DNA of 35,841 nucleotides from the IMG/VR virus record IMGVR_UViG_3300025769_000369, positions 1 through 35,841 of that record; one strand, 5' to 3'. Of this stretch, positions 2,202 through 30,932 are shown one piece after another. The translations under genes were made by a program, and so were the position numbers. How positions within the stretch are numbered: the first letter of the stretch is position 1; every line of letters begins with the position of its first letter. The notes under the pieces were generated by a model, which searched no databases, was not told where the DNA came from, and saw only the letters and a list, made by a program, of their open reading frames with translations. The stretch is from a virus.

Positions 2202-2230
2202 TGTTTGTGGCTGTGGCTGTGGCGTGGGGG

Positions 2231-2243
2231 TATAATAGAGATT
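2231..2243 (+). promoter_or_regulatory. Possible -10 element directly before the giant gene
   Basis: A perfect TATAAT lies at 2231-2236, and ATG 2244 begins seven bases after it. If used, transcription would start on or next to the start codon, giving a leaderless mRNA. No good Shine-Dalgarno lies in front of this ATG. The best -35 match, TTGTGG at 2205-2210, has a poor 20-base spacer, so the promoter is only a candidate. Confidence 0.35.
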
Positions 2244-5200
2244 ATGGCTAGAGCACCTAGGGTTGTACCTTTTAATCCGGCGCCTCGTGACGCTGACCTT
2301 GACCAGATTGTGCAGGAGGGCACGATTTGGGAGCGCCCTAAGGGTGCTGATATTATTTATTTGACGGGCCGTGTTTGGGATCAGACTGGTAGAGCGCCTC
2401 TTCGTAGTGATGTTCGTATTGTTTATAATGGGCGCGTGTATGAACCGGGTGATGGTTTTAGGTTTGATTCGTCGTCTGTTGGGGCACAGGCTGGCGTGAT
2501 TGGTGATCGGGCTGGCACTATTGGTGATCGGGTTGGTACGATTGCACCACCTCCTCCTCGTCCGAAACCGACACTGCGGGAATCTGAGGGTACTGTTGGT
2601 GTAGCTCCTCCGCCTCCTCGTCCTACTTCTATTGCGGAAGCTGCGCGCCCTTCAGCGCCTCCGCCTCCTCCACGACCCACTTTGGGTGAGTCTCGTGGTA
2701 CGTTGGATTCTCCTCCGAAGCCGCCTCCGCCTCGTGAAGTTCCTTCTGATCCATTTGAGAACATTCCCAGAGATAGGCCGGTTGTGCAGGAACCGCCGCC
2801 TCCTCCGCCGCGGATTCCGCCTGAGGAACAGGTTCGGCCTCCGAGTATTTCTGCTGATGAGGATGCGGCAGCTAAGCGTTCTATATTAAGGGTTCGTGAT
2901 CGGTGGGGCCGTAAAAAGCGTGATAATGAACGTCGTTATGAGGAGGAGCGTATTGTTCCTTCTATGGAGGAGGCGGTCGAGGCTGAGGTGCAGGAAGAGA
3001 GGGTGGATCAGATTGTTGCACAGGTCGAAGCAGTAGATAAAGCTTTAGATGAGGTCGTTGAGGTTGCTGATGTTCCTGAGTCTTCTTCTATTGATGTTTT
3101 GGTTGCGGAAGATGTGGAGGAGATTCTTAGAATCCGTCGCCAGAATACGGCGGATCATCCAGATTATTACAAGTCTCGTGGAGAGAGAATATATGCTACG
3201 AGAAGTAAATTTGATCTTGGGGGTAGCAGGCTTGATAATGAATTAAAAATTGATACTATTTCTTCTCGTGATAGGCGTGAGTATGAGGAGATGCTTGCTG
3301 AGGTTCTTGAGCGTGAGGCGTTTGCTGATAAACTTGCAGCAATAACTGGTTTTTCGTTTCCGGACGAGGGCGGTATTGTTAATAATTTGTATGATTCTCC
3401 AGATGACGTTCCTGAAGAGGTTCTTGAGGCAGTTGCCGAACTTGTTCGTAACACTAAGTTTATAGATAAGTTTATAGGTGACCAAAAACCTCCTGAGGAT
3501 TTAAAGCAGTTGTTTTTTTACGCTGCTCAGCTGGCTAATAAAAATGAGTCAACTCATAGGGAAACGGTTCAGTTGCGGCTGGAGGTAAATTATCGGAGGA
3601 AGCTGTTGACAGATCCTCCTAAATATGTGACACGAACAGAGTTGGCGCAACGAGTTGGTTTTTCTAGTTGGGAAGAAGCTAGGGAGGCTGCTCAGACCGA
3701 TCAGGCGCTTGCCTTACATTTAGACAGAATGGAAACAGCCGCAAGGTATGGCTATGATTTTTATGACGATACTGTCCGTGATTTAGATACGGAGATCGGA
3801 GAAGCCGCATATAAAATAACTAGACTCACCCGTGCTGGTAGGCAAGTCTATTTGAAAAGAGATAATAGTAGATTTGGTGTTGGTCAGCAAATTCCGAAAG
3901 ATGTTACTTCTGAAGATGTGGCCCGTTTAACTAGAGAGTTTATTGCAGAGGCTGATAAGTTTCTGCCAAAGGCATTTTCTGAAGAAGCTAGGGCTATAAT
4001 TACTGAACGGGTAAGAGCTATCGAAGCCATGAGTCCTGAAGAAGTTGAAACTCTTGTTTTAAATTACGCTCGACAAGTTCTGGAAGATCCCGATACTCGT
4101 ATTGGCGTCATGATAGACCCTAAGGATGCTCCGGCGTTAAAAAGACAGGGGCGGTATCTTACTACACACTCAAAGCTTTCAGCTTCTCGTAGCGACGATT
4201 ACGATGCTGCTCGGGTTGTTTATGAAACAGGTATGCTTCAAATGCCTGCCGATGAAGACACACGAGCTGACCTTGCCCCATCTTCCGGGTTTCTAATTCC
4301 TGGGGCTAGAATGAGAGCGGCCCGACGTGAGGCTGAAGAGAAATATGTCGAAGAATTTGGTGTACCTTACGATCCTGCTAATGCAACTCCTGAGCAACAT
4401 GCGTTTTTTGAAAACGTTCGGATTTCGCAAGCATCAGTAGGTATTGAGGCGTACGCTGAAGAACTTGTCGTTTTGAAGCCTTCTGTAAAAGCTAAAAGCC
4501 GTTTTACAGAAGGAGACAGTTTTAATGAGTTTGCGATGACATCTCTCATGCAGAATCCTGATGGCTCTCCTTTGTCTGATCAGCAGCTTCGGAATGCGCT
4601 ATTTGGACGTGGCACATTTACTAAGGAGTTATCAACAGGTGGTGGTGATGGCGGGCACCTAGGGCCAACAAAACATACTCTTGGTAACTTTTTTGTAGCT
4701 GCTGCTTTGGGACTTGATCCTGCCATTTTAGGTCGCCACCGTGCTATGGACCGTGAGATAAATGAAGCATGGGATGAAGGCGATATTGACAAAGAGATTG
4801 CAGTCGGTGCTCGTTTCTTGCACGGTCACACAAAAGTATCTGAGTTTGCTATGGGATTCCCCTACTCTGCTGCATACATAGAAACCATGACGTTCGGCGG
4901 TTTTCACACCAGCGAAATCGAATCAGCATCAGAAGGTTTACGAGACATCCTAGACGTAGCTATACCCGCTGAAGTTCAGCAACAAATAGAAAGCTACTCC
5001 GGACAATTCCTGCCAACATCCGCATTCGTTGAAGAAAACATTGAACAAACAACCAGATCAGCTTTAAACCGTGCAGCCGCCGCTACCGGAACAGACCTTC
5101 CAGAAACAGGAGGCACCGCAAAGTTCTTAACTGCTCGGGCAGGAGAGCTGCCTGGAAAGTTTGTCTCCACGATTACAATAATGGAACTGAGAGCCGACTT

Positions 5201-8200
5201 AAAATCTCGACGTGAGGTGCTACTCCTATTAGAAGCCGACCCGGATGCTGATCCTGACGCTATCGCTTTTGCAAAGAAGGAGATTGAAACTCTGCTTCGA
5301 GGAATCGGTCGTCTTGATAAAGGTAAAGACATAGCTGTCGTTCCGCACACTAGTTCTTCCGACGGTTGGCCGTCTTATCTGCGGGTAGATCATCCAAGTA
5401 TTGTTGCGCAAATTCATGCCGCTACAGACAAGTTAAGTCCTGAAGTTCGTCCTGAGACAGTTATTGTTTCTTTCGATGCACCTTACGGTGGCGGTATGTA
5501 TGTTCATGGGCGGGGCGGCGTGATCTATATTCATCCGGCTGCTTTGGATTGGAAAGATGCGTCGTTCAACATTAATCAGAAAGATTTAGCTACCCGTCTT
5601 GCTAAGGCTGGTGCTACTTCTCCTGAAGAGTTTGATGCGTTTTTCCGTCCTTCGCAGGCGTGGGTAGATGACATTATTATTCACGAGGGTTTCCATAGGG
5701 TTGATTTCCTTTTGGCTAAGGCCAGTAAGGATCCTCAGGCTGCGGCTTCGTTGTTGTCTTCTCCGGAGATGGCTGCGGCGTTTGATGAGTGGCTTACAAC
5801 GAGTATGCCGTTCTTGTTGGAGTATTTTGAGGGTGTGGATAAGGCTGATTTGCGGCTACACGAGTTCGCTTATTTGGGCGAGTTGTTGGGTGTGACTGGT
5901 ACTGATCGGGATGAGGCTGTTCGTAGCAAGCTGGTTAAGTTGTATGCTGCACGGGTTAAGAAGCCTGTTGATTCTGTTGATCCTGATGTGGCGTTGAAGG
6001 AGGAGCGTTGGCGGCTTATTTCTGAGGTTTATGCCGAGTTGGCTCGTTTGGATGCGAAGGGTATTCCGTTCCCGAATTCTGAGATTTTGATTGATGGTAT
6101 GACTCCGGCTTTTTCGAGAATTTATGAGGGTTCTGACGGGTCTGGGGATGTTTTGCGTGCTGCGTTTGCTGACGCTGCTGCGTCGTTGTCTGATATTGAT
6201 GATGCTGTGGGGGCGGCGCAGGCTGGTTTAGATAGTGCGGTGCGTGACGTTGCGTCTGATGTTTCGGCTTCGGTTGATGATATTGATGACACTGTTGAGA
6301 GTCTTCGTGTGGGCGCTATTCCTGTTAGGCGCGGCTTGTATGATGGGGTGGATGGTGCATATGTTCCTGATCCGGTGACTCGTGACGATATTGCCCGAAA
6401 CTTGGGGTTTGCTGATGCTGACGAGTTAGATGCCGCTATAGCTGATGATCCGATCATGGCGAATAATGCTCGTATTTTGGAAGAGCTTGCCACGTATGGT
6501 TTTGATATTGGGGTTGTTGGTAGTTTGTCTGCGGATGAGGCACGGGCTAGGTATGAGGCGGCTAAACCAGGCGGTTACATGGCTACCCGTCATGTCTCTA
6601 AGCCTGTAGACACTGCTGAGATTAAAGACATCATGGATGGTATGGCATCCAAGCTCAGAAAGTCTCTGGCAGAGGCGGATGCTTTACCTCAAGATCCGGA
6701 TCGTGTCAAACAAAGCGCTAAAAAGCGGGAATTATTGGAGCGAATTGAGGCCACTTCCCCAGAGGAAGCTAAACAACTTCTGATTGATTTTATGCGTGAT
6801 ATTTTTGATGATCCTGACACAACTATGGCTGTTAATACCGGCTTCCTTGACGAGGTTATGGAGTCTGGTAGGTTTTTGTCCGTTCGGGAAGCTCCCAAAA
6901 ACAGAAGTGAAGGCGGTGACGGATACGCCCGTTACGACACTGAACGGGCGCTCTGGGGCTTACATGAGGATACTCCCGGCAGTTTGAGTCCTGCTTACGG
7001 TTTTGTGGTGTCTGGGGCGCAACGACGTGCTGCACGTGAAAAAGCTTTGGAGGAATACGGTGCTAGAGTAGAAACGCTCCCTGATGGTACAACCGGTATC
7101 CGTTGGGGTTATAGTGAGGAAATTAGGGATGAAGTCTTAGAAATAGCGTTGGAAGTCACGAATGACTTGTACCCTGGCGTGACGCGCTCCGCCGATTTGC
7201 CGGATGATGAAGCTAAGAGAATTGTTGCAGATGCTATTCATAAAAAAGTTGTAGAACGGTTTGGACTAAACGCTATAGATGCAAAATTTAGAAAAGAGGC
7301 GGTCAATAAAGAGCTTAAGAGTCTAAGGCTGCCTGGTTACGGTGATGGAGTCATTCTGATAGATCCCAAGGTCATGCATCGTTCTACATTTACACAAGGA
7401 GATACTGTTAATGGTGCCGGTAGGCCCGTTCACTACAGCCGCAATATGACCGATCAACAGTTGCTAGATATGGCGGCAAGGGCGGAAAGGAACCCTAGTA
7501 AAAGTCGAGATCGTGGTGAAGCTCTTTTAGCGCGAGCCATTTTGGGTTATGATTCAAGATCGTTAAACAGGTCGAAAGTTTCTGAAGAAACTACTGGGGT
7601 TTTTATGGGTGACGTAGCGCCTGTGTTTGAGCATGATTATATCGAAGCTCAGATTTTCGGAGCCTTTACAACAGAAGAAATTCTTACGGCTACTGACGGT
7701 AAAAGAGAATTTGATCCAGCGCCGTACGCTCCTGCTGTGCCTACGGATCTTACGCCTGAGAGTGAAGTTGCTGCCATCAAAGCACAGCTTGCAGCAGAAC
7801 GAGCCGGACAGTCTATCGACGCAGTAGTTGCTGATGCTGCTGCTACGATTGATGATTTGGATGATGCTGGGGATGAAGTGGTTTCGTTTATGGCCCGTTC
7901 GAGTGATGACATTGACCCCAACTTTGGTCTTCCTCCAGGGCCTGATTCGCCTACAGAATGGGACAGGGAGCGCTTGTCTAATGCTGACAGACTAGACGGT
8001 TTCACTCAGCCTCCCACGAATATTAGTGCGCTGGATGGTGAGGGCCTGCGGGAGGATCAAAAATCTTTGAATCGTGTTGTAGCTGAGGCGGCTACTGAAG
8101 AGGATCTTGTGCCGTTGCAGGAAGCTTTACGGCAAGCAGTGGAAGATGAAGGTAGCCCGCTGTATCTAGAAGCAGAGCGAGGCAGTCTTAGTGACGAGAA

Positions 8201-10910
8201 AACATTTAAAGTGATACAGGCATTAGATGATTTGATTGCTTTCAGATCGTCTTCTGATGAAAGTGCGGACCAGCAGCAGCGTATACGTGAGGCCGAAGAA
8301 GAACTTGCGATACAGCTAAGGAACGCTATTGGCCATCATTGGGGAGCAGCAAGAAGTGAAGTGTTTCATTGGGACTTTTTGTCGGAACGTGTTCAAACAG
8401 TTTTAGGGGACGAGTTTGGAGTTTCTATACAGCATGAACGACGAGAGTCGCCTTCTGATTTTGAAAGTATCCGAAATCTACAGGAGGCCCTTGCGCCGTT
8501 TGTTGACGCTTGGGCGAGAAGTCAGTATTCTGCAACACAGCAGTATTTGAAAGAAAATGATATTACAGAAGTTAACTTGTATCGAGGTTTGTTTATTCCG
8601 AGGTCAAAGTCGTCCGAAGTTCCTCGTGGCACGACGACTGATCGTGGCGTACCCAGGGCACGTGGTCTACAGTCGTGGACTAGCAGGTTAGAAACGGCTC
8701 TTCTGTTTTTAGGTAATAAATACGAAACTGCTAAGGATGAAATTAAAAAGATTGAAGATAGCGGTGAAGATCTTGCAATGCCTGAGCATGTTTTGCTACA
8801 TGATGTAGTGCCTGCTGAGTTAATATTTGGGTTTGCTAGCGATGCCCACAAGGAATCTTTCCGGTTTGGTGTTTCTGTCGAGCAAGAAGTTGTTGTTCTT
8901 GGAGATAGCTCACGGCGTGTTAACATGTTGGGAGACGATTTTTTGGATCTTCACCGAGAACCTTCTGGTAACTTTATCATTGACAGACGAGAGAGTGCTT
9001 TTAGATTGTCAGAAGATGAGGTGTTTGATTACTTATCAAGCGACGCCGAGGTAACTCAGTTAGATAATCTCAGCAGTGCGGATGAGCTAACTGGTGTTGA
9101 TGATTTGACCGCCAGCGTTGAACGCATTCAGGAACAATTCGGTCTACAAGATTTGGAAACCAGACTGGACTCTGGCTCTCGCATTTTCTACGACATGGAG
9201 ACAGATCTTTATTTTGCATTAGACGATTCGGGTGACGGGCCTACCGAAATTCAAACTTTTGAAAGCTTTGATGATTTTGTTTACAGTATTGATACTTCTG
9301 AGTTAGAAGAGCAAGCTTTACAAGATTGGCGTGAAGGTGACGCAAAGCGCACGGTTGTCTTCCACGGTACTACAGCAGAAGCTTTGGAGACTATCAGGAC
9401 GGAAGGTTTGGATCCACGTAGCGACACTAGAGGAATTGTTAACAGAGGTGTTGGTGATGCTGTGTATACGTCGGAGACTGCTGATGCGGCTGAGGCTTTT
9501 TATGATGTTGTGGTAGAGATTGATTTGCCTAGAGCTATTGAGGATGGGGTAATTTCTGTTGATAGTTTGGATAGGGAACCGGATGTGATCCGCAACGAAG
9601 TTTTGGAAGGGATTGCTAGCAGTTTCGCTGTTGACGATTTTGTACCTGAGGAAAGTTTTGACGGTACGAGGCCGGATACTGTTGTGATTAGTGAGCGGAT
9701 TCCTCCGGAGTATTTGCTTGTTAATGGTGAGCCGCTTGTTCCTCAATCTGTTTCTGCTAACCCTGACTTTGGCCTTCCTCCAGGGCCTGATACTCCTACA
9801 CAGTGGGCTAGAGGGCGTTTGGATAAGGCTGAGATACAGAATTCAGATTTACCCGATGCAAACCTTAGTGTTGTTTTGGGTGATGGTTTGCGTGAAGATC
9901 AAAAATCTGTGAGTAAGCTATTGGTAGAGGCTTCTAGTGAAGATTTGCGAGAACTAAATGAAACTATTGGCGCCTATTGGAAGGCGGAGCTGGTGAAAGA
10001 CTTGCGTGGTCGCCAACCATGGGTGAACTTAAGTCGCCAGTTGGAAAAACTGCTGGACAAACGCAAGGAAACATCTCAACGTAAAGATTTGGCGTTGGCA
10101 GAGCAGGGAGTGATGACTGAATTACAGGACTTAATCAACCGTTCTTGGACATCATCTAGGGATGAAGTCATGCATTGGGACTTCATGTCTGAAATCGTTC
10201 AGAACGTTTTGGGGGACGAGTTTGGAATTTCTGTCGTCCATGAACGCCGAGAGCCACCTTCTGATGTTGAAAGTATTCAAAAACTGCAAGAGTTACTTAC
10301 ACCGTTTGTTGAAGCTTGGGCTAGAGGTCAGTATGCTGCAACACAGCAGTATTTGAAAGATAATGATATTACCGAAGTTAACTTGTATCGAGGTTTGTTT
10401 ATTCCTACGGCTAAGGGAGATGGCCGGGACGGTACTGCAACTGCTCGTGGTGTAGGTTCGGTGCGTGGTCTACAGTCGTGGACTAGGAGTTTGGAGATGG
10501 CTCTTAACTTTGCAGGCAATAGATATGGTACCGCTAAAAATGAAATTGCGGAGATTGAAGAGAGTGGTGAAGAGCTTGACCTGCCTGAGCACATGTTGTT
10601 GCATGATGTTGTTCCCGCTGAATTAATATTTGGTATAGCTTCTTATGATTCTTCTAGCAACACTGGATTTTCGTTTGGTTATGGAAAAGAATCTGAAGTT
10701 GTGGTTTTAGGGAGTTCACGTCCTGTTGATATCTTGGGGGACGATTTTTTGCGAACTTATCAAATATCTGGAGATACTATTCCAGAACCGCCTACTTACA
10801 TTGCCCGATCTTCTCATCCTACAAGAAGGACTAGTTATAGACTTTCAGAAAACGATTTGTTTGATTACTTATCAAGTGAGACTCCTAATGATTTGGATAC
10901 AGAAAGGTAA
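2244..10910 (+). CDS. Giant modular protein: duplicated domains, HEXXH metalloprotease motif and ADP-ribosyltransferase-like modules
   Basis: An 2888-residue protein with no single known counterpart that I recognise. Numbered from ATG 2244, it has a proline-rich region (about 90-200, repeated PPPPRP), a highly charged helical stretch (200-330), module A1 (461-896), a zinc-metalloprotease-like region with HEGFH at 1147-1151, module A2 (1373-1823), module B1 (1893-2266), a PARP-like module (H2374 in FHGTT, Y2408 in VYTS), and module B2 (2508-2885). B1 and B2 each carry an R-S-E type ADP-ribosyltransferase set: R2114/R2716 in LYRGL, the S-W-T segment at 2144/2745, and E-x-E at 2213-2215/2816-2818. 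I prefer ATG 2244 to TTG 2205, which adds a Trp/Leu-rich stretch. It lies between connector and sheath genes, where phages often place internal or ejected proteins, so delivery into the host is plausible. Substrates are unknown. Confidence 0.6.
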   Translation: MARAPRVVPFNPAPRDADLDQIVQEGTIWERPKGADIIYLTGRVWDQTGRAPLRSDVRIVYNGRVYEPGDGFRFDSSSVGAQAGVIGDRAGTIGDRVGTIAPPPPRPKPTLRESEGTVGVAPPPPRPTSIAEAARPSAPPPPPRPTLGESRGTLDSPPKPPPPREVPSDPFENIPRDRPVVQEPPPPPPRIPPEEQVRPPSISADEDAAAKRSILRVRDRWGRKKRDNERRYEEERIVPSMEEAVEAEVQEERVDQIVAQVEAVDKALDEVVEVADVPESSSIDVLVAEDVEEILRIRRQNTADHPDYYKSRGERIYATRSKFDLGGSRLDNELKIDTISSRDRREYEEMLAEVLEREAFADKLAAITGFSFPDEGGIVNNLYDSPDDVPEEVLEAVAELVRNTKFIDKFIGDQKPPEDLKQLFFYAAQLANKNESTHRETVQLRLEVNYRRKLLTDPPKYVTRTELAQRVGFSSWEEAREAAQTDQALALHLDRMETAARYGYDFYDDTVRDLDTEIGEAAYKITRLTRAGRQVYLKRDNSRFGVGQQIPKDVTSEDVARLTREFIAEADKFLPKAFSEEARAIITERVRAIEAMSPEEVETLVLNYARQVLEDPDTRIGVMIDPKDAPALKRQGRYLTTHSKLSASRSDDYDAARVVYETGMLQMPADEDTRADLAPSSGFLIPGARMRAARREAEEKYVEEFGVPYDPANATPEQHAFFENVRISQASVGIEAYAEELVVLKPSVKAKSRFTEGDSFNEFAMTSLMQNPDGSPLSDQQLRNALFGRGTFTKELSTGGGDGGHLGPTKHTLGNFFVAAALGLDPAILGRHRAMDREINEAWDEGDIDKEIAVGARFLHGHTKVSEFAMGFPYSAAYIETMTFGGFHTSEIESASEGLRDILDVAIPAEVQQQIESYSGQFLPTSAFVEENIEQTTRSALNRAAAATGTDLPETGGTAKFLTARAGELPGKFVSTITIMELRADLKSRREVLLLLEADPDADPDAIAFAKKEIETLLRGIGRLDKGKDIAVVPHTSSSDGWPSYLRVDHPSIVAQIHAATDKLSPEVRPETVIVSFDAPYGGGMYVHGRGGVIYIHPAALDWKDASFNINQKDLATRLAKAGATSPEEFDAFFRPSQAWVDDIIIHEGFHRVDFLLAKASKDPQAAASLLSSPEMAAAFDEWLTTSMPFLLEYFEGVDKADLRLHEFAYLGELLGVTGTDRDEAVRSKLVKLYAARVKKPVDSVDPDVALKEERWRLISEVYAELARLDAKGIPFPNSEILIDGMTPAFSRIYEGSDGSGDVLRAAFADAAASLSDIDDAVGAAQAGLDSAVRDVASDVSASVDDIDDTVESLRVGAIPVRRGLYDGVDGAYVPDPVTRDDIARNLGFADADELDAAIADDPIMANNARILEELATYGFDIGVVGSLSADEARARYEAAKPGGYMATRHVSKPVDTAEIKDIMDGMASKLRKSLAEADALPQDPDRVKQSAKKRELLERIEATSPEEAKQLLIDFMRDIFDDPDTTMAVNTGFLDEVMESGRFLSVREAPKNRSEGGDGYARYDTERALWGLHEDTPGSLSPAYGFVVSGAQRRAAREKALEEYGARVETLPDGTTGIRWGYSEEIRDEVLEIALEVTNDLYPGVTRSADLPDDEAKRIVADAIHKKVVERFGLNAIDAKFRKEAVNKELKSLRLPGYGDGVILIDPKVMHRSTFTQGDTVNGAGRPVHYSRNMTDQQLLDMAARAERNPSKSRDRGEALLARAILGYDSRSLNRSKVSEETTGVFMGDVAPVFEHDYIEAQIFGAFTTEEILTATDGKREFDPAPYAPAVPTDLTPESEVAAIKAQLAAERAGQSIDAVVADAAATIDDLDDAGDEVVSFMARSSDDIDPNFGLPPGPDSPTEWDRERLSNADRLDGFTQPPTNISALDGEGLREDQKSLNRVVAEAATEEDLVPLQEALRQAVEDEGSPLYLEAERGSLSDEKTFKVIQALDDLIAFRSSSDESADQQQRIREAEEELAIQLRNAIGHHWGAARSEVFHWDFLSERVQTVLGDEFGVSIQHERRESPSDFESIRNLQEALAPFVDAWARSQYSATQQYLKENDITEVNLYRGLFIPRSKSSEVPRGTTTDRGVPRARGLQSWTSRLETALLFLGNKYETAKDEIKKIEDSGEDLAMPEHVLLHDVVPAELIFGFASDAHKESFRFGVSVEQEVVVLGDSSRRVNMLGDDFLDLHREPSGNFIIDRRESAFRLSEDEVFDYLSSDAEVTQLDNLSSADELTGVDDLTASVERIQEQFGLQDLETRLDSGSRIFYDMETDLYFALDDSGDGPTEIQTFESFDDFVYSIDTSELEEQALQDWREGDAKRTVVFHGTTAEALETIRTEGLDPRSDTRGIVNRGVGDAVYTSETADAAEAFYDVVVEIDLPRAIEDGVISVDSLDREPDVIRNEVLEGIASSFAVDDFVPEESFDGTRPDTVVISERIPPEYLLVNGEPLVPQSVSANPDFGLPPGPDTPTQWARGRLDKAEIQNSDLPDANLSVVLGDGLREDQKSVSKLLVEASSEDLRELNETIGAYWKAELVKDLRGRQPWVNLSRQLEKLLDKRKETSQRKDLALAEQGVMTELQDLINRSWTSSRDEVMHWDFMSEIVQNVLGDEFGISVVHERREPPSDVESIQKLQELLTPFVEAWARGQYAATQQYLKDNDITEVNLYRGLFIPTAKGDGRDGTATARGVGSVRGLQSWTRSLEMALNFAGNRYGTAKNEIAEIEESGEELDLPEHMLLHDVVPAELIFGIASYDSSSNTGFSFGYGKESEVVVLGSSRPVDILGDDFLRTYQISGDTIPEPPTYIARSSHPTRRTSYRLSENDLFDYLSSETPNDLDTER
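3624..4931 (+). repeat. Module A, copy 1 (protein-level repeat)
   Basis: Residues 461-896 of the giant protein. Shared landmarks with copy 2 are the start (TRTELAQRVGF here), a DPDT segment, a GFLIPGARMRAARREA helix, an SRFTEGDSFNEF stretch (S752, R753) and a closing YIETMTFGGFHTSEI. The last element recalls the EAQ-HG segment of DUF3626-type proteins. That link is from memory and weak. The copies are clearly paralogous in order and spacing but diverged. Confidence 0.7.
6360..7712 (+). repeat. Module A, copy 2 (protein-level repeat)
   Basis: Residues 1373-1823 of the giant protein, parallel to copy 1. It starts with TRDDIARNLGF, followed by DPDTTMAVN, GFVVSGAQRRAAREKA, RSTFTQGDTVNG (R1713, S1714) and YIEAQIFGAFTTEEI. 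The metalloprotease-like region lies between the two copies. Confidence 0.7.
7920..9040 (+). repeat. Module B, copy 1 (ADP-ribosyltransferase-like)
   Basis: Residues 1893-2266. It starts NFGLPPGPDSPTEW and ends FDYLSS. It contains LYRGL (R2114), LQSWTS (2142-2147), HDVVPAELIFG and E2213-Q-E2215, in the order expected for the NAD-binding core of R-S-E ADP-ribosyltransferases. Its DNA is almost identical to copy 2 over about 70 bases near 8530-8605 versus 10336-10410, so the duplication is recent or kept by conversion. Confidence 0.7.
9765..10890 (+). repeat. Module B, copy 2 (ADP-ribosyltransferase-like)
   Basis: Residues 2508-2885. It starts DFGLPPGPDTPTQW and ends FDYLSS shortly before the stop. 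LYRGL (R2716), LQSWT (2743-2747; the next residue is R2748, where copy 1 has the second Ser), HDVVPAELIFG and E2816-S-E2818 follow the order of copy 1. All candidate catalytic residues are kept, so neither copy looks decayed. Confidence 0.7.
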
Positions 10911-11339: not shown

Positions 11340-11478
11340 AGCTATATTGACATCTGGCACAAAGTTTCATTAGTTCCGTCATTTTTGGTGGTAAACTAAT
11401 ATTTGAGAGCGTACCCTTTGCGTACCCCGCAGGGCAGTTCAATACTAGTATTGTATCTACAAGAATATGGAGGCAATT
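11340..11478 (+). promoter_or_regulatory. Leader region of the tail sheath/tube operon
   Basis: This 139-base stretch has several control-like elements. There is a consensus -35 (TTGACA 11347-11352) without a good -10. GCGTACCC is repeated at 11409-11416 and 11420-11427. A perfect 14-base palindrome, CAATACTAGTATTG, lies at 11440-11453. TTGCGT (11418-11423) with a 17-base spacer to AATACT (11441-11446) is a possible promoter whose -10 lies inside the palindrome. GGAGG at 11469-11473 is the ribosome binding site for ATG 11479. Confidence 0.4.
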
Positions 11479-13038
11479 ATGCCGGGAGTTAATGTCACCA
11501 CTACAGTGCGTACCGGTCCTGCGGGCACTAATAACAATGTGGCGGGACAGGTGTTTATGGTTGGCACCGCTGAGCGTGGATCAACGACTGAGCCGACGCT
11601 TCTTCGTAGTTTCAGCGACTACACAACCTACTACGGTAACTATCAGTCGGGGAATCTGTATTCCCACGTGAAGACGTTCTTTGATGAGGGCGGTTCTCGT
11701 TGCTATGTTTTCCGTGTTTACAACTATGATGATACCGATGTACTTGTTAAGGCAAAGACTGCTACGATCGACTTGACTGATTCTAGTGGGTCTGCGACGA
11801 TGACGCTGACTTCTAAGAATGTTGGTACTTGGGGCAATAATCTTTCGGTCGCTGTTGAGAACAACAGTGATGATAGCAACATTCTTTCTGGTTATTTCCG
11901 GCTTAAGATTTCACTAGATGGTGAACTTCTTCTGTCTACTCGTGATCTTCTAGATGTTGATGATGCTGTCAATGTTATCAATACTTCTATTGTGAAGCAT
12001 CTTGTGACAGCTGCGGATAATACGACTTCTAGTAACGATCCTGATTCGCTTGCTGACACGAACTTTTCTGGTGGTCTAGATGGTTCGGCTGTTACGGCAG
12101 ATCATATTGTGGATGCGTTGGACGGAACGTTTGATTCCGATCCGGATGTAACGACTTGCTTTAGTGTGAATCTTAAGGATGGCGCTGTTGCGGCTCCGGG
12201 ATATACTGGTTCAGCGGTTTGGAATGCGCTTCGTACTCATGCTGCGAACAATAACCGTATCGCTCTGTGTGGGTTCACGCTGGGTGAGTCGTCTGCTAAC
12301 GCTAAGACTAGTGCTTCTTCGTACTACTCTGATGCAAACGCTAAGCACATGGCTTTCTATTGGCCGCACATTAAGGTCACGTCACCGAATGCTGCTGAGC
12401 TTGCCACGGGTGAGTCTACTGTAACGACGGCCACAATCAATCTTTCACCAGAGAGTTATGCGGCTGCTGCTCGGGCTAAGGGCATTGCGGCGGCTGGTGG
12501 CCCTTGGCGGGCCGGTGCCGGTCAACTTTCAGCAGCTAAGAGCATTGTTGATTTGTATCAGGATGTGACTCCGGCTACTGCGGAAACGCTTGATAAGGCG
12601 CGAGTTAACGCTATTCGCAAGGTCAACAACTCGATTAGAGTGTATGGTGCCCGTTCGGTTTCTAATGATGAAACGAATTGGCGTTACATTACTCAGCAGG
12701 ACACGATGAACTATATTGCGGTTCGTATTGAAGAGCGTATGGAAAGCTTTGTATTCTCAACGATTGACTCTCGTGGTAACTTGTTTGGCCTGATTCGTGC
12801 TTCCATTAAGGGCTTTTTGAAGGGCGTTGCTTTGCAGGATGGCCTGTATGCGGCGTACGATGTAGAGGGCGCTCAGGTTGATCCGGGTTATACGGTTTCA
12901 GTTTCTGCAGCGAATAACCCAAATTCACAGCTTGCTACGGGTTTGGTTAAAGCTACGGTCGGTGTCCGGGTTTCGGGTGTCGCTGATTTGATTGATATTG
13001 TTATCACTAAGAGCAATCTGAGTGATCCTCTAGTTTAA
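11479..13038 (+). CDS. Contractile tail sheath protein
   Basis: A 519-residue sheath subunit, which surrounds the tube and contracts on infection. The N-terminus MPGVNVTTTVRTGPAGTNNNVAGQVFMVGTAERG, followed by SFSDYTTYYG and a GGSRCYVFRVY strand, is the standard start of phage sheath proteins: the tube-clamping extension and first domain. The C-terminal part has RVNAIRKVNNSIRVYGARSVS, WRYITQQDTMNYIAVRIEERM and LVKATVGVRVSGVADLIDI, matching the conserved sheath core. Length is normal for a compact sheath. I chose ATG 11479 over ATG 11467 because GGAGG lies five bases before 11479 and within the longer reading frame. It is followed by the tube gene 13 bases on. Confidence 0.92.
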   Translation: MPGVNVTTTVRTGPAGTNNNVAGQVFMVGTAERGSTTEPTLLRSFSDYTTYYGNYQSGNLYSHVKTFFDEGGSRCYVFRVYNYDDTDVLVKAKTATIDLTDSSGSATMTLTSKNVGTWGNNLSVAVENNSDDSNILSGYFRLKISLDGELLLSTRDLLDVDDAVNVINTSIVKHLVTAADNTTSSNDPDSLADTNFSGGLDGSAVTADHIVDALDGTFDSDPDVTTCFSVNLKDGAVAAPGYTGSAVWNALRTHAANNNRIALCGFTLGESSANAKTSASSYYSDANAKHMAFYWPHIKVTSPNAAELATGESTVTTATINLSPESYAAAARAKGIAAAGGPWRAGAGQLSAAKSIVDLYQDVTPATAETLDKARVNAIRKVNNSIRVYGARSVSNDETNWRYITQQDTMNYIAVRIEERMESFVFSTIDSRGNLFGLIRASIKGFLKGVALQDGLYAAYDVEGAQVDPGYTVSVSAANNPNSQLATGLVKATVGVRVSGVADLIDIVITKSNLSDPLV

Positions 13039-13051
13039 GGAGACATGATTA

Positions 13052-13540
13052 ATGGCTAAAGCAACTCAGAGGCAGATTGTAGCCTCACTTATTCCCACCT
13101 CGACGGGTGTGGCATCTGTCGCTCCCCAGATTAATGGTGGTGGCGGTGAAGCAGGTACCTACTTTACGACCGTTAGTGGTGGTGAAATTAGCGCTGCTGT
13201 CGAAAAGATTTACGATGGCGGTAATATCCATCCAGAGGTATTGTGTGCGCCTTCTGAAATTGGTGACATTACTGTTAGCCGCTATGCTACAGACGATACA
13301 GTTGATCACAACCTCCTTCAGGATATTCGTCAGCTAGTTGGTCGGGCGTATTACGATATTACAGTGTTTACGCTTAACTGTGATCTTGCGGTTCCGGGTT
13401 CTGAGCGAGTCTATCCGAAAGCACTTTTGGTTGGCTTAACTGAACCTGACGGTGACGCTTCTTCGGGAGCACCTGCTACCTATTCGCTGACGTTCTCAAT
13501 TTCATCTGTGGACGACAGCAAAGAAACAGAAAATACCTAA
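13052..13540 (+). CDS. Tail tube protein
   Basis: A 162-residue protein directly after the sheath, the usual place for the tube subunit. It is beta-rich, with GTYFTTVSGGEISAAVEKIYDGG, a DITVSRYATDD segment, YYDITVFTLNCDLAVPG and a final ATYSLTFSISSVDD strand, all as in T4 gp19-like tube subunits, whose hexamer rings form a beta barrel. GGAG at 13039-13042 is the ribosome binding site. The cotranscribed pair ends at the terminator at 13574-13600, so sheath and tube form a unit that can be made in large amounts. Confidence 0.85.
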   Translation: MAKATQRQIVASLIPTSTGVASVAPQINGGGGEAGTYFTTVSGGEISAAVEKIYDGGNIHPEVLCAPSEIGDITVSRYATDDTVDHNLLQDIRQLVGRAYYDITVFTLNCDLAVPGSERVYPKALLVGLTEPDGDASSGAPATYSLTFSISSVDDSKETENT

Positions 13541-13675: not shown

Positions 13676-14413
13676 ATGACTATTCCTGTTACAAGTAGCA
13701 GGGTGAACGTGAAGGACCTTCACCCGAAGTTTAAGGCCCGTCTGGAAGCGTTCTTCGCTGATCCACGCATTGCGGGCAAGGTTGCTGTTGTGTCTGGTGT
13801 CCGCACCTATCAGCAGCAGAAGTACCTGTATGATGGCTATAAGAGCCGTAAGCCCGGTTTCAATCTGGCAGCTAACCCTGACCGTATTAACCGTGCGGGC
13901 TTCCAGGGTTCGTATCATATGAGCCAGCCAAAGTTTGATGGTTACGGTTATGCTGTTGACTTCCGTATTATCAAGAAGGGTGCTATCTCTACCACGCAGG
14001 TGAATAAGATTGCTGAAGAGTACGGTATTCGTAAGACCGTGGCTTCGGAGTGGTGGCATCATCAGCCGTGCCGTGTTAGCGGTTCTAAGATGGATTGGTT
14101 CCCTGTTAAGGGTGACATTACGGTTCCGAGAGCTGCTTCGGTGAAGTCTGAGCAGGCTCAGGTTCTTGAGTTCATTGCGGCTTGTTTCAAGACTGTTGTG
14201 CGTAAGGGCGATAAGGGTCCGGTTGTTGAGTTCCTTCAGAAGCTTCTGGATAAGAACGGTTACAAGCTGACTTCTCGTCCTCGTAAGAATTCTGGTGTTG
14301 ACGGCGACTTTGGTCCGAAGACGTTGAAGGCTGTGAAGCAGTTCCAGCGTGACGAGGGGCTTGCTGCTGACGGTGTTGTTGGTCCTAAGACTTGGGCAGC
14401 GCTTGCTGACTGA
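13676..14413 (+). CDS. Endolysin: M15 family peptidase with peptidoglycan-binding domain
   Basis: A 245-residue cell-wall hydrolase. Residues 1-140 form a VanY/M15 zinc peptidase: zinc ligands H81 (in SYH) and D95 (in YAVDF), then E125 and H128 in EWWHH, all at family spacing. Such enzymes cut D-Ala-D-Ala or related stem-peptide bonds. Residues about 172-245 form a PG_binding_1 domain, with GPVVEFLQKLL, VDGDFGPKTLKAVKQFQ and DGVVGPKTWAAL. No signal peptide is present, so it would need a holin or damage to leave the cell, or could be carried in the virion. Its place between tube and chaperone genes is unusual for a lysis gene and leaves open a structural, tail-associated role. Confidence 0.85.
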   Translation: MTIPVTSSRVNVKDLHPKFKARLEAFFADPRIAGKVAVVSGVRTYQQQKYLYDGYKSRKPGFNLAANPDRINRAGFQGSYHMSQPKFDGYGYAVDFRIIKKGAISTTQVNKIAEEYGIRKTVASEWWHHQPCRVSGSKMDWFPVKGDITVPRAASVKSEQAQVLEFIAACFKTVVRKGDKGPVVEFLQKLLDKNGYKLTSRPRKNSGVDGDFGPKTLKAVKQFQRDEGLAADGVVGPKTWAALAD

Positions 14414-14439: not shown

Positions 14440-14958
14440 ATGGCTGATGAAATTATTGAGGTAGCTGGTTCTGCCCCTAAGGCGGACCCTGATAAGCTGA
14501 CGGAAAGCAAGCGTCGTGTTTCTGTTCTTGACATGCTTAAGGAAGAAATTTCTCGTGAGGTGACACGCCCCGAGGTTGAGATGAATGTTCCGGAGCGTAA
14601 GGGTGTTACAGTACGTTTTTCTCCCAACATCACGAACGATCAGTTGAAGGCGTGGCGTCGTAACTCCACGAACCGTAAGACTGAAGAGTTGGATTCGATT
14701 AAGTTTTCTTGCTATGTGGTTGGTAATACTGTTAGCGGTATTTACTTTAACGATGAGCTGGTTCTTGATGATGAGGGGAACGCTATCACGTTTGCTTCGC
14801 CTGTGATGATGGAGATGACTGGTACGGAGCGTCCTTTGCCGGATGCTATTCGTGCGTTTTATGGTGTTGATCCTCATCTTGAGAATGTTGCGTTGAAGAT
14901 TCTTGATTACGCTGGTTATGGTGATGATGTTGATGCTGAAGACCCTACGCAGGGCTAG
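14440..14958 (+). CDS. Tail assembly chaperone (short form, gpG-like)
   Basis: A 172-residue protein that would coat the tape measure during tail assembly. The ending, RAFYGVDPHLENVALKILDYAGYGDDVDAEDPTQG, has the FYG..PH and DPTxG pattern of actinobacteriophage tail assembly chaperones and stops at the position where those genes frameshift. The N-terminal half is charged, with an ERKGVTVRFSPNITNDQLKAW segment. Ribosome binding site AGAAAGG lies nine bases before ATG. It precedes the tape measure gene, the universal order for this gene pair. The product of ordinary termination at TAG 14956 should be the more abundant form. Confidence 0.85.
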   Translation: MADEIIEVAGSAPKADPDKLTESKRRVSVLDMLKEEISREVTRPEVEMNVPERKGVTVRFSPNITNDQLKAWRRNSTNRKTEELDSIKFSCYVVGNTVSGIYFNDELVLDDEGNAITFASPVMMEMTGTERPLPDAIRAFYGVDPHLENVALKILDYAGYGDDVDAEDPTQG

Positions 14959-15149
14959 TTGATGAACTAGCCCAAGATCCGAGGGTTAAGGCTGCAGGTA
15001 ATCTTGCTGAGGCTTTTCATTGTGATCCGATCGCTATTTTGGATTCGGATATTGATGAGTGGTTGATTCGGATGGCTGCGGCGAAAGCAGTTTCGGCTGC
15101 CCATGAGGCTAGAGAAAAAAACCGAAGAGGAACTCATGGTGGTTACTGA
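14940..15149 (+). CDS. Frameshift extension of the tail assembly chaperone (gpGT-like)
   Basis: Frame -1 relative to the chaperone is open from 14940 (after TGA 14937) to TGA 15147-15149. From 14961 it encodes DELAQDPRVKAAGNLAEAFHCDPIAIL..., ending KNRRGTHGGY, about 65 residues. There is no ATG, GTG or TTG near its start; the only ATG by the stop, at 14962, is in frame 0 and gives Met-Asn-stop. So it must be reached by a -1 shift between 14940 and 14958. In the G/GT system the longer product binds the tape measure. The exact slip codon is not certain: CCT 14944-14946 slipping to CCC 14943-14945 re-pairs best. Confidence 0.75.
   Translation, partial: RPYAGLVDELAQDPRVKAAGNLAEAFHCDPIAILDSDIDEWLIRMAAAKAVSAAHEAREKNRRGTHGGY
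14952..14973 (+). promoter_or_regulatory. Perfect hairpin over the chaperone stop codon
   Basis: GGGCTAGTT (14952-14960) pairs without mismatch with AACTAGCCC (14965-14973) around a GATG tetraloop. It starts five bases after CCT 14946, a normal spacer for a -1 frameshift stimulator, and it contains the frame-0 stop TAG. There is no T-tract, so it is not an intrinsic terminator. Confidence 0.75.
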
Positions 15150-15212: not shown

Positions 15213-18200
15213 ATGGCTGCAAGAGATAGAGTTGTTATCAATATTAAGGTTGATGTTGATGATGGCGAGCTAGATAAGCTTATTATTCGTATCGCTACTT
15301 TAGAGCGTCGTTTTCAGGCGTTACAGAAGCGTATTTCTAAAATGGCGACCTCTTCCCGGCAGATGAATGAGAACCTGCGGAACACTAATAAGACGCTGCG
15401 TACTACAAATGATCAAGTTGATAAAGTAGGTAAAAAGTTTGATGATGCTGCTAAGAAAATTGACGCTACTCACAAAAAGTTACAAGAGAGCAATAAGGGC
15501 TTACAGGATTACGCAGACACTACTAAAAAACTAAATAAACAAATGGACGACCACGACCGGCGCAACAAGCGTATGCGTCGAAGTTTTGGTAAGTTCGATC
15601 AAATTCTTAAACGCGTGGTTATGCAAATAGGCAAGTTTATTATGACGCTGGCAAAGCTGTCGTTTATTGCGGTAGCAGGTCAGCTTGCGTTGTTCACGGC
15701 AGGCTTGTTGGCAGTTAAACTTGCGTTGATTACAGGCAGGGCAGCGGTTCAGATCTATCAGATAGCTTTGAAAGGTTTATCGGTTACGGCTGCTGGTGTA
15801 GCTACTGCTTTGTCGGTTGCGGCTGCAGCGATGCGTGAATATAACGAAGCCATGTTAGCGCCTTCGATGGGTGGAGGGCTACAAGGCTACCAGAAAGCTT
15901 CTAGACTTTCGAGAGCTGTCGGTTCTCAAAACGCTGGTTTGCTTGGTGGAGAAAGCACCACGGCTGTAGTTGCCGCATTAGCAAAAGCTGGTGTTTCTAC
16001 GGGTAGGGTTTCGCCTATTGCACGACAGCTCATTAATTTGACAGGCGGTGACCCTGCTGCTGTTGCCGCTGTGGCAAAAACGTTAGGTGGTAAAGATTTT
16101 AACGCTGCTTCGTCTGCTGTGAAGGGCGCTGCCGGGTTTAGGGCTGATTCTCTTGAGGGTGTCACTACCATGTCGCAGTTGTTGAATGCGATCCAGTCAG
16201 GGTCGGTTGTTTCGGGGGCGTATGCGAATCAGAGCGACATGTTGGCAGGCACGTTTATTGGTACGGCTAAGACTCAGTTTGCTGGTTTGAAAGACCTGTT
16301 TGCTGACATGGGTCAGCCTTTGCTTGGCCCGTTTAGAGATACGATGTTGGATATTTCTCAAATTTTGAGAAGTAACTTTATTGCTTTGGGTGCGATAATT
16401 AACAAGTTTGGTGCTGAGTCGTTTGCGCCTACTTTGACGACCATGATTGAAAAAACTATGGATTTTGTTCGTATGAACATTTTTGATCATCTTGAAGATA
16501 TTGAGCAGATGGGTGAGAACTTTGTTGGGTTCTTTAGGTCTGTTCGTAATTTCTTTGGTGACATGGCGAACTTTTTGGGCCAGTTTGAGCCTGCTGCTAA
16601 TGTGGTGATCGACATGTTTGGTGCTATGCGTGGTACTGGCGGCGGTCGTAGTTTGTTTAGGCAGTTTTCTGATTTGGTTGTGAAAAACGCTGAGGGGTTT
16701 AAGAACTTTGGTGCTTCTATCGGCAGTGTTTTGGGGGCTTTGTTTGACGCTTTAGGTAGTGGTCAGAGCGGCTTTTTTGCGAAGCTGCCTTTGTTTAGCG
16801 ATATTTTGAATAAGGTTGCGTCAGATTTGATTCCGGGTTTGGCTGCAACGATGGAAGGCATTATGCCTATTCTTGAGGCGCTCCCTGATCTTATATCTCA
16901 GATCGGTGATCTCTTTAAGTATACGATCGCTCCTGCGTTTAAGACGTTGACCACGATCTTAGGGTTTATTCTCGGGATGCCGGGTGGCGGTATTTTGGGT
17001 CTTGCTGGTCTAGCGTTTATGAAGGCCCCCGGGCGTAAGGGTATGATGAAGAATGCGATGGGATTGGGCGGCGGTCAGCCGAGATTCTTTTCTGAGAGAA
17101 TGGCTAAGATTAATGAAAGGCGTGCATTAAAGGGGCAGGATCCGTTAAATAGTGGTCATGCGCTTCGCGGCTTAGTGGGACTCTCTTTAGGTTTGGGTGG
17201 CGCAAATCAGGCTTATCAGGAAGGCTCTATGGCAGGTACGGGTACGTTCACTGCTGCTGCAGGCGGCGCTATGATTGGTTCGATTGCGGGACCGTTAGGT
17301 GCTGCGATTGGTGCTGCGATTGGCGCTGGTGTTGGTATGATTGCTGGCGCTTTTGGTTCTGCTGCTCAAACTAGACGGCGTGCGGAAAATGTTCGTAAAG
17401 CTGCTGAGCGACTTAGGTCGATTGATACTGGGATGATGACTAGTGCTGAGTTGAATGCTTTACAGGGGCAATATAGTCTAGCTAATAGTTTAATTCTCTC
17501 ATCCAGGGTAGCGGATGCGACTTTAGGTCTTTTTTCCTCGGTGTCAAACGCTAGCGTCGGTGGTACGGTCCTGGATCGCTTTGCAGAAGAGAATCCGGAG
17601 ATGCGGAATATTACACTTGGGCGGCTTTTAGAGATTCAAGGTGTGTCAGCAGATTTTTCGAGCAGCGAGTTAGGTATTACTGTGGGTGCGTATCGATCGG
17701 CAGTTGAGGGCTTTAAGCAACAAAGGTTAGACCTAATTAGTGCATTAGCTGAGGCCAACGGTATGACAGTAAAAGAGTATTCTAACGACCGTTTTGGTAC
17801 TGAGTTGGATATGGACTCAACAATAATGGATTTTGATAGCGTGACGGATAAGCTAAGCGAGGAACTAGATGAGGTTGTGGACACTTTTGAGCGAACACAG
17901 GATGCTATAGCTAATCTGACTGTAAACGTTGCGGCATTAGCGGACGAGTTTGGTGTTACTTCTGATAAAGTTTTGGAACTGGCTGAAAATCTTGGTTACA
18001 GACTGCAAACTGGTGTGACTGATTTTCAAAGATTAGTGCTTCAAGCTTTCCTTCAACCTATTGACCGGACTCAAACGTTTTTACCTGATATGGCCAAGAC
18101 CCCTATTGGCTACGCTGAGCAGAACGCTACAGCTAGAGCAGCCTTTACTACGTTGCGTGATGGTTTAATTGCAGGGGATGTTACTGCAGATATGTATAGC

Positions 18201-18902
18201 GACGCTATTGAGGCATTTGCTACATTGTTTGTTTTAGGTGGGGGGTCTCCAGATGTTGGGGGGCTTGCAGGTATTTCGGAGTTGTACGAGTTTTATGGAA
18301 AAGATCCACAGAACGCCGCTGGTATTAGCTTCTTTGACGTAATTAATCCTAACTTGGAAGCAGCGACGACGGACATACTTGAGCGAATGTCTGCTCAGTA
18401 CAATATTCCTATTGAAGTGCTAAAGGGGGCGTTGTATACAAACGGCCAGGGTGTCGGCTTTGATAATTTTGGTATTTCGAATCTTTCTTACACTGTGTTA
18501 GCCGAAGAACAGAAGCGGCGACAAGCATTTACTGGCGGAGTTTCGGTGCGTAATCCGTTAGAGCGTCTAAGTCTTCTAGAGAACCAGTTAAGCGATTTTG
18601 ATTATGCAAATGTATCTGATCAAATATTGACCTTGCTGGGAGAAGACACCGGCACTGCTCGCGGTGCAATCAACAGATCCGAATTAACTGACTCTGAACT
18701 AGGCGCTATCATCAATACCGCTGTTGTCCAAGCTAGTTTAATTCCTGCGAAAGAAGCTAGAGAAATTGAAAATAATGAGTTTTTAAGAAAAGTAGCAGGG
18801 GTTACCGACGATAGCGGAATGAAAATAGGTGGAGTTAGTATTAACAATATCGGAAGGGTAATTGGTAAAATTATAAGAGAAGAAACTGAAAGAGAGCCGT
18901 AA
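15213..18902 (+). CDS. Tape measure protein
   Basis: A 1229-residue protein whose length sets tail length and which sits inside the tube. Residues 20-130 are a long charged coiled coil. Residues 135-206 are strongly hydrophobic and could insert in the host membrane on DNA entry. About 681-720 is a glycine-zipper stretch (AGGAMIGSIAGPLGAAIGAA and following). The rest is helical with many Gly/Ala. All this is typical of tape measures, as is the place after the chaperones. At about 1.5 angstrom per residue it would imply a tail near 180 nm; this uses a known rule, not data from here. GAGGGGG is the ribosome binding site. Confidence 0.92.
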   Translation: MAARDRVVINIKVDVDDGELDKLIIRIATLERRFQALQKRISKMATSSRQMNENLRNTNKTLRTTNDQVDKVGKKFDDAAKKIDATHKKLQESNKGLQDYADTTKKLNKQMDDHDRRNKRMRRSFGKFDQILKRVVMQIGKFIMTLAKLSFIAVAGQLALFTAGLLAVKLALITGRAAVQIYQIALKGLSVTAAGVATALSVAAAAMREYNEAMLAPSMGGGLQGYQKASRLSRAVGSQNAGLLGGESTTAVVAALAKAGVSTGRVSPIARQLINLTGGDPAAVAAVAKTLGGKDFNAASSAVKGAAGFRADSLEGVTTMSQLLNAIQSGSVVSGAYANQSDMLAGTFIGTAKTQFAGLKDLFADMGQPLLGPFRDTMLDISQILRSNFIALGAIINKFGAESFAPTLTTMIEKTMDFVRMNIFDHLEDIEQMGENFVGFFRSVRNFFGDMANFLGQFEPAANVVIDMFGAMRGTGGGRSLFRQFSDLVVKNAEGFKNFGASIGSVLGALFDALGSGQSGFFAKLPLFSDILNKVASDLIPGLAATMEGIMPILEALPDLISQIGDLFKYTIAPAFKTLTTILGFILGMPGGGILGLAGLAFMKAPGRKGMMKNAMGLGGGQPRFFSERMAKINERRALKGQDPLNSGHALRGLVGLSLGLGGANQAYQEGSMAGTGTFTAAAGGAMIGSIAGPLGAAIGAAIGAGVGMIAGAFGSAAQTRRRAENVRKAAERLRSIDTGMMTSAELNALQGQYSLANSLILSSRVADATLGLFSSVSNASVGGTVLDRFAEENPEMRNITLGRLLEIQGVSADFSSSELGITVGAYRSAVEGFKQQRLDLISALAEANGMTVKEYSNDRFGTELDMDSTIMDFDSVTDKLSEELDEVVDTFERTQDAIANLTVNVAALADEFGVTSDKVLELAENLGYRLQTGVTDFQRLVLQAFLQPIDRTQTFLPDMAKTPIGYAEQNATARAAFTTLRDGLIAGDVTADMYSDAIEAFATLFVLGGGSPDVGGLAGISELYEFYGKDPQNAAGISFFDVINPNLEAATTDILERMSAQYNIPIEVLKGALYTNGQGVGFDNFGISNLSYTVLAEEQKRRQAFTGGVSVRNPLERLSLLENQLSDFDYANVSDQILTLLGEDTGTARGAINRSELTDSELGAIINTAVVQASLIPAKEAREIENNEFLRKVAGVTDDSGMKIGGVSINNIGRVIGKIIREETEREP

Positions 18903-30847: not shown

Positions 30848-30930
30848 GCCCCCGTGGCGGAATTGGCATACGCAGCGGACTTAAAATCCGTCACCTTCAC
30901 GGTTTGTGGGTTCGAGTCCCACCGGGGGTA
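30848..30930 (+). tRNA. tRNA-Leu (anticodon UAA)
   Basis: An 83-base class II tRNA. Acceptor stem GCCCCCG/CGGGGGT (first pair a G-U), D arm with GGCGGAATTGGCAT, anticodon stem GCGGA/TCCGT with loop CTTAAAA (anticodon TAA, reads UUA), a long variable arm (CACCTTCACGGT), T arm GTGGG-TTCGAGT-CCCAC, and discriminator A. CCA is not encoded. UUA codons are frequent in this genome's genes, as in the sheath and tape measure, so the tRNA probably supports their translation in a host where UUA is rare. Its 3' end lies two bases before the next gene's ATG. Confidence 0.95.
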
Positions 30931-30932
30931 CT

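Follow-up and report, generated by a model that had tools for sequence, protein, structure and literature searches.

The −1 frameshift of lambda G/GT and related frameshifts in tail assembly chaperone genes were reportedly described by Xu, Hendrix and Duda in 2004 (as cited in PMC4524720). Frameshifts of this kind have since been reviewed (PMC5009743). Work in Escherichia coli by Sharma et al. (2014) has also addressed all of the shorter Z_ZZN tetramers, only six of which proved clearly shift-prone when combined with a strong pseudoknot, at 0.26-5.6% (PMC4066793). C_CCU and C_CCC shifted equally in that survey and C_CCA and C_CCG less; by itself C_CCU was weak and needed the strong pseudoknot (PMC4066793). 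Downstream stimulators are expected to begin 4-10 nt from the slip site, to start with a G-C pair and to need 7.6 kcal/mol or more to unfold (PMC4066793).

The 35,841-base window analysed here, an IMG/VR virus record, carries a myovirus tail module, with sheath, tube, endolysin-like ORF, tail assembly chaperone and tape measure in that order. The tail sheath protein (11467..13038; phrog_23, E 1e-33), the tail tube protein (13052..13540; phrog_5102, E 1e-25), the 172-aa frame-0 tail assembly chaperone G (14440..14958; phrog_5088, E 1e-20) and the 1229-aa tape measure protein (15213..18902; phrog_167, E 8e-8) are all encoded on the plus strand, and G additionally matches Arthrobacter and Gordonia chaperones in tblastn. 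The chaperone locus thus occupies the G/GT position between the tube and tape measure genes, an order shared by the cultured relatives. The endolysin-like ORF (13676-14413; peptidoglycan-binding domain PF01471, phrog_2649) lies between the tube and chaperone genes, which is an unusual position inside a tail module. The sheath gene is preceded by a single 2901-aa ORF (2205-10910) whose listed start is TTG; for a fragment of 36 kb this is a very large ORF. The sole tRNA in the window is a tRNA-Leu with anticodon TAA (30848-30931).

G is read in frame 0 from 14440 to 14955 and ends at a TAG at 14956-14958. In the −1 frame, the last upstream stop is a TGA at 14937..14939 (plus strand), after which the frame is open from 14940 to a TGA at 15147-15149. 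A shift is therefore confined to 16 nt between the opening of the −1 frame and the G stop; the initial annotation had given the same bounds, and all of its coordinates proved correct. In frame 0 this stretch reads A GAC CCT ACG CAG GGC TAG. As had also been noted, no X_XXY_YYZ heptamer lies in frame between 14940 and 14958, which places the site outside the canonical heptamer class, and the only Z_ZZN tetramers present are C_CCT (14943-14946) and G_GGC. The in-frame C_CCT allows cognate re-pairing to CCC, as membership of the Z_ZZN class requires. After such a slip the next codon would be TAC (14946-14948), the first of a 67-codon −1 extension, T (14946..15149, plus strand), that ends at the TGA at 15147-15149 and encodes a domain homologous in all relatives. 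Among the C tetramers it is C_CCU and C_CCC that shift readily in E. coli, so a Z_ZZN −1 frameshift site is the best interpretation of the junction, and we consider it very probable that a programmed −1 frameshift at C_CCU makes a G-T tail assembly chaperone fusion. The earlier expectation that this would be a type other than the purine heptamer is borne out by the fit to this known tetramer class.

To place the junction in an evolutionary context, we drew on 33 IMG/VR loci with a related chaperone (51 with a profile search), on more distant loci at 46-50% identity, and on cultured Arthrobacter and Gordonia phages whose chaperones are about 30% identical. The fusion protein matched 72 Arthrobacter records, and Brevibacterium phage Cantare (L114) was found through the T domain; genome-contig scans and a plasmid search yielded no further relatives. 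Wherever the contig of an inspected relative extends across the junction, a −1 ORF of about 56-69 codons overlaps the end of G and encodes the same T domain; the contigs of L028 and L087 stop short of the shift site. The comparison covered 59 distinct junctions (53 plus L113, L114, L115, L157, L158 and L163), taken from IMG/VR contigs as well as from phages of Arthrobacter, Gordonia and Brevibacterium, with L158-L161 sharing one junction.

The T domain is conserved in a second, overlapping frame and lacks a start of its own, as in G/GT pairs. Were T translated from a start within its own frame, or by ribosomes re-initiating downstream of the G stop, there would be no frameshift, and annotators have indeed assigned a start to the T ORF in several Arthrobacter phages. 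However, no ATG, GTG or TTG occurs before codon 32 of T in the window, the first candidates in relatives fall anywhere from codon 12 to codon 62 at positions that differ among them, and the conserved T domain is not preceded by a start codon. In five loci (L091, L043, L046, L050 and L053) the T frame is devoid of start codons, which excludes independent translation. An own start, which the initial annotation had named as one finding that would overturn its proposal, would in addition leave the frozen GAC CCT unexplained, and we give it next to no credence.

Conservation at the proposed C_CCU slip site is nearly complete. An in-frame C_CCY precedes the G stop in 59/59 distinct junctions (C_CCT in 58, C_CCC in 1), and GAC stands directly 5' of it in 58/59, the exception being Cantare with AGC; within the window, the site GAC CCT lies at 14941..14946 on the plus strand. 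CCA and CCG never occur among the natural junctions, a pattern that agrees with the ranking of the C tetramers in E. coli (PMC4066793). The freeze extends to synonymous positions. By codon counts, the window's clade uses GAC in 32/32 cases at the site vs 186/676 elsewhere and CCT in 32/32 vs 186/331. CCT is likewise fixed in Arthrobacter phages (18/18 at the site vs 21/191 elsewhere) and in Gordonia phages (4/4 vs 4/42), though it makes up only 9-11% of their proline codons. Among the upstream codon columns examined in the clade, nearly all invariant amino acids other than Met are encoded by at least two codons, whereas GAC and CCT are constant. These codon statistics indicate that the site is conserved beyond what protein conservation alone would require. 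The fusion tree has 1-4 changes per column on the branches between lineages, and such long branches imply that the motif has outlasted most of the protein sequence.

Two junctions depart from the common form. The C_CCC variant of L158-L161 (GAC CCC TCG AAG GGG) lies some 24 nt upstream of the G stop, which comes later in frame 0, with T still in the −1 frame. Cantare reads AGC CCT TTA, that is C_CCT_TTA with Ser replacing Asp, and its annotated T has an internal start. An aspartate as a strict requirement was also considered and is weakened by the AGC CCT of Cantare.

For the point of slippage, the initial annotation had preferred CCT to CCC, which would give the junction peptide EDPYAGLVDEL, and had offered GGC to GGG, next to the stop, as an alternative. 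In the latter case the slow stop codon would stimulate the slip and the product would be EDPTQGLVDEL. G_GGC TAR is invariant within the window's clade, and its first two positions can re-pair. Outside that clade the motif dissolves: GGC is missing in Gordonia, Brevibacterium, many Arthrobacter and distant IMG/VR relatives, with ATCGCC TGA in Brent, CAAGTCC TAG in DrYang and TTGGCG TGA in Gordonia, and ArV1 has CAC TAG straight after CCT. The stop itself is displaced downstream in L157, L163 and L158, and across relatives it lies 3 to 24 nt 3' of the proline codon, whereas the position of C_CCY is constant. Within the clade, the nine bases 3' of CCT vary as −1 codons, with Tyr kept invariant through TAC and TAT, where frame 0 would read Thr, Met or Ile. 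Furthermore, G_GGN tetramers fall outside the truly shift-prone set in E. coli (PMC4066793). A likelihood based on column variability was about 1.9 log units better for a switch no later than CCT than for one at GGC, which is a weak preference. In our reading of the alignments the comparative argument, namely that GGC and the stop vary and C_CCY does not, is the stronger of the two. A slip at GGC is thus highly improbable, and the proposed slip at CCT gains support as C_CCY is the sole element common to every relative.

A tandem slip on a degenerate heptamer would involve either tRNA-Asp in the P site (GAC to NGA) together with tRNA-Pro in the A site, or tRNA-Pro in the P site together with the next tRNA in the A site. 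Real heptamers of the form C_CCT_TTR are found only in the Gordonia (C_CCT_TTG) and Brevibacterium (Cantare, C_CCT_TTA) relatives, and C_CC.U_UU.A/G shifts at >0.10% without stimulators in E. coli (PMC4066793). In the window, however, the ACG that follows CCT does not permit re-pairing on UAC, and GAC can have A, G, C or T on its 5' side, so that tRNA-Asp would meet AGA, GGA, CGA or TGA. These two observations make a tandem slip unnecessary in the window's clade, for which we regard it as quite improbable.

Next to the slip site, the initial annotation had described a perfect 9-bp stem with a GATG loop that begins five bases after CCT and contains the TAG, and this is correct. The hairpin, GGGCTAGTT-GATG-AACTAGCCC, occupies 14952..14973 on the plus strand and includes the frame-0 stop. 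Its 5-nt spacing, G-C first pair and energy of about −16 kcal/mol agree with the stimulator rules. It is more stable than dinucleotide shuffles (z = −4.4) and than shuffles keeping the encoded T protein (z = −3.8), both of which show that it exceeds what chance or coding would produce. The signature of selection extends to relatives: 22/29 clade members are more stably folded than 95% of T-protein-preserving shuffles, and 84.5% of cells pair at the named stem pairs vs 19-48% when these are slid. Covariation in the stem is slight: a single pair, the one that involves the last base of the stop codon, changes on both sides (G-C to A-U). RNAalifold, run on the clade, favoured instead a 4-bp hairpin, CCCU/AGGG, that covers the slip site; we rejected it, as it would be impossible during decoding there.

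Conservation of the hairpin, which the initial annotation had proposed as a check, holds for most of the window's clade (22/29) and fails for the family as a whole. No shared 3' structure was found in Arthrobacter phages at 40 nt (0/17), which rules out a universal hairpin; when longer stretches are folded, a few of these phages attain p < 0.05, but no common fold was established. Gordonia phages also lack a matching hairpin. Even within the clade, the basal members L093, L094, L102 and L105 are without the compact stem, although at 65 nt three of these four, plus L095, have longer folds (p ≤0.04). In L093, L094 and L102, the GGGCT that normally enters the stem pairs instead with an AGCCC located some 40 nt further on, with an inner stem enclosed between the two, which suggests a swapped stimulator structure. 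Because the basal members lack the compact stem and the Arthrobacter phages lack a shared structure, the comparison indicates that the hairpin, although real, was added at the level of the clade and is not the defining element. It probably serves as an added, clade-specific stimulator and not as the core signal.

One point against the C_CCU reading is that this tetramer is weak alone, yet the Arthrobacter phages carry it without a shared 3' structure. A search for Shine-Dalgarno-like stimulators at 6-17 nt on the 5' side gave 5/29 clade members, 5/17 Arthrobacter phages and 4/4 Gordonia phages, and a stimulator of that type is therefore not general. A speculative and on balance unlikely answer is that C_CCY works in Arthrobacter phages without downstream structure through slow Asp-Pro bond formation. 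With Asp in the P site and tRNA-Pro in the A site, the ribosome would be held where tRNA-Pro can re-pair, and the window's clade would have gained its hairpin later, as a booster. Stalling at Asp-Pro is known (PMC11381351), and our literature search found no link between Asp-Pro stalling and −1 frameshifting.

Taken together, we propose that most ribosomes would read GAC CCU ACG CAG GGC UAG and release G. In a minority, the tRNA-Pro on CCU, in the A or P site, would re-pair with the overlapping CCC, after which UAC GCA GGG CUA would be read and the 67-residue T domain added. In the window's clade, the stable hairpin 5 nt downstream, with the G stop inside it, probably acts by stalling the ribosome or pulling on it, which would raise the rate of slippage.

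None of the 19 Arthrobacter phage records opened (in the range L036-L056 and L115) contains a joined CDS, and T, where it is listed at all, appears as a separate 'hypothetical protein'. Annotation of the Gordonia phages is mixed, with the fusion given in some records and missing from others. A C_CCY tetramer site would explain why the chaperone fusions are missing from the Arthrobacter phage annotations. Klyczek 2017 makes no mention of frameshifts, and no description of a C_CCU frameshift site in a tail gene turned up in a literature search of partial coverage. The eight backward motifs of PRFect include no tetramer (PMC10885494), and our results suggest that search tools could add C_CCY. Judging from the alignments, C_CCU is most likely a rarely noticed kind of proline slip site, nearly unchanged in distant relatives and missed by many records. 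It would carry the Z_ZZN class, so far represented mainly by insertion sequences and reporters, into a widespread phage morphogenesis gene. It would also offer an evolutionary series within one gene, comprising the tetramer alone (Arthrobacter), the tetramer with a hairpin (the window's clade), the heptamer C_CCU_UUR (Gordonia and Brevibacterium) and the C_CCC variant.

Compared with known systems, the locus shares with lambda G/GT the order of tail tube, G with T in the −1 frame, and tape measure, and, as proposed here, a minority fusion that would lengthen the chaperone. Sites of the lambda type are usually X_XXY_YYZ heptamers such as G_GGA_AAG, whereas the window has a C_CCU tetramer and no heptamer. 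The Z_ZZN signals of IS1 and IS3 (PMC4066793) are similar in having a four-base motif that allows one tRNA to re-pair and a hairpin 4-10 nt downstream. Their natural tetramers, however, are mostly A_AAG, U_UUY and A_AAA, while here C_CCY is found in phage tail genes and, in the Arthrobacter phages, without a shared hairpin. The Gordonia phages ChisanaKitsune, GMA6, DalanDe and ScarletRaider have homologous G and T, an annotated frameshift and an identically placed GAC CCT, but differ in the TTG after CCT, which creates C_CCT_TTG, and in the absence of a matching hairpin. Listeria phage PSA likewise shifts at a proline codon in phage structural genes; there, in contrast, the shifts are +1, at CCC_U, and lie in the capsid and tail-shaft genes (PMC5009743).
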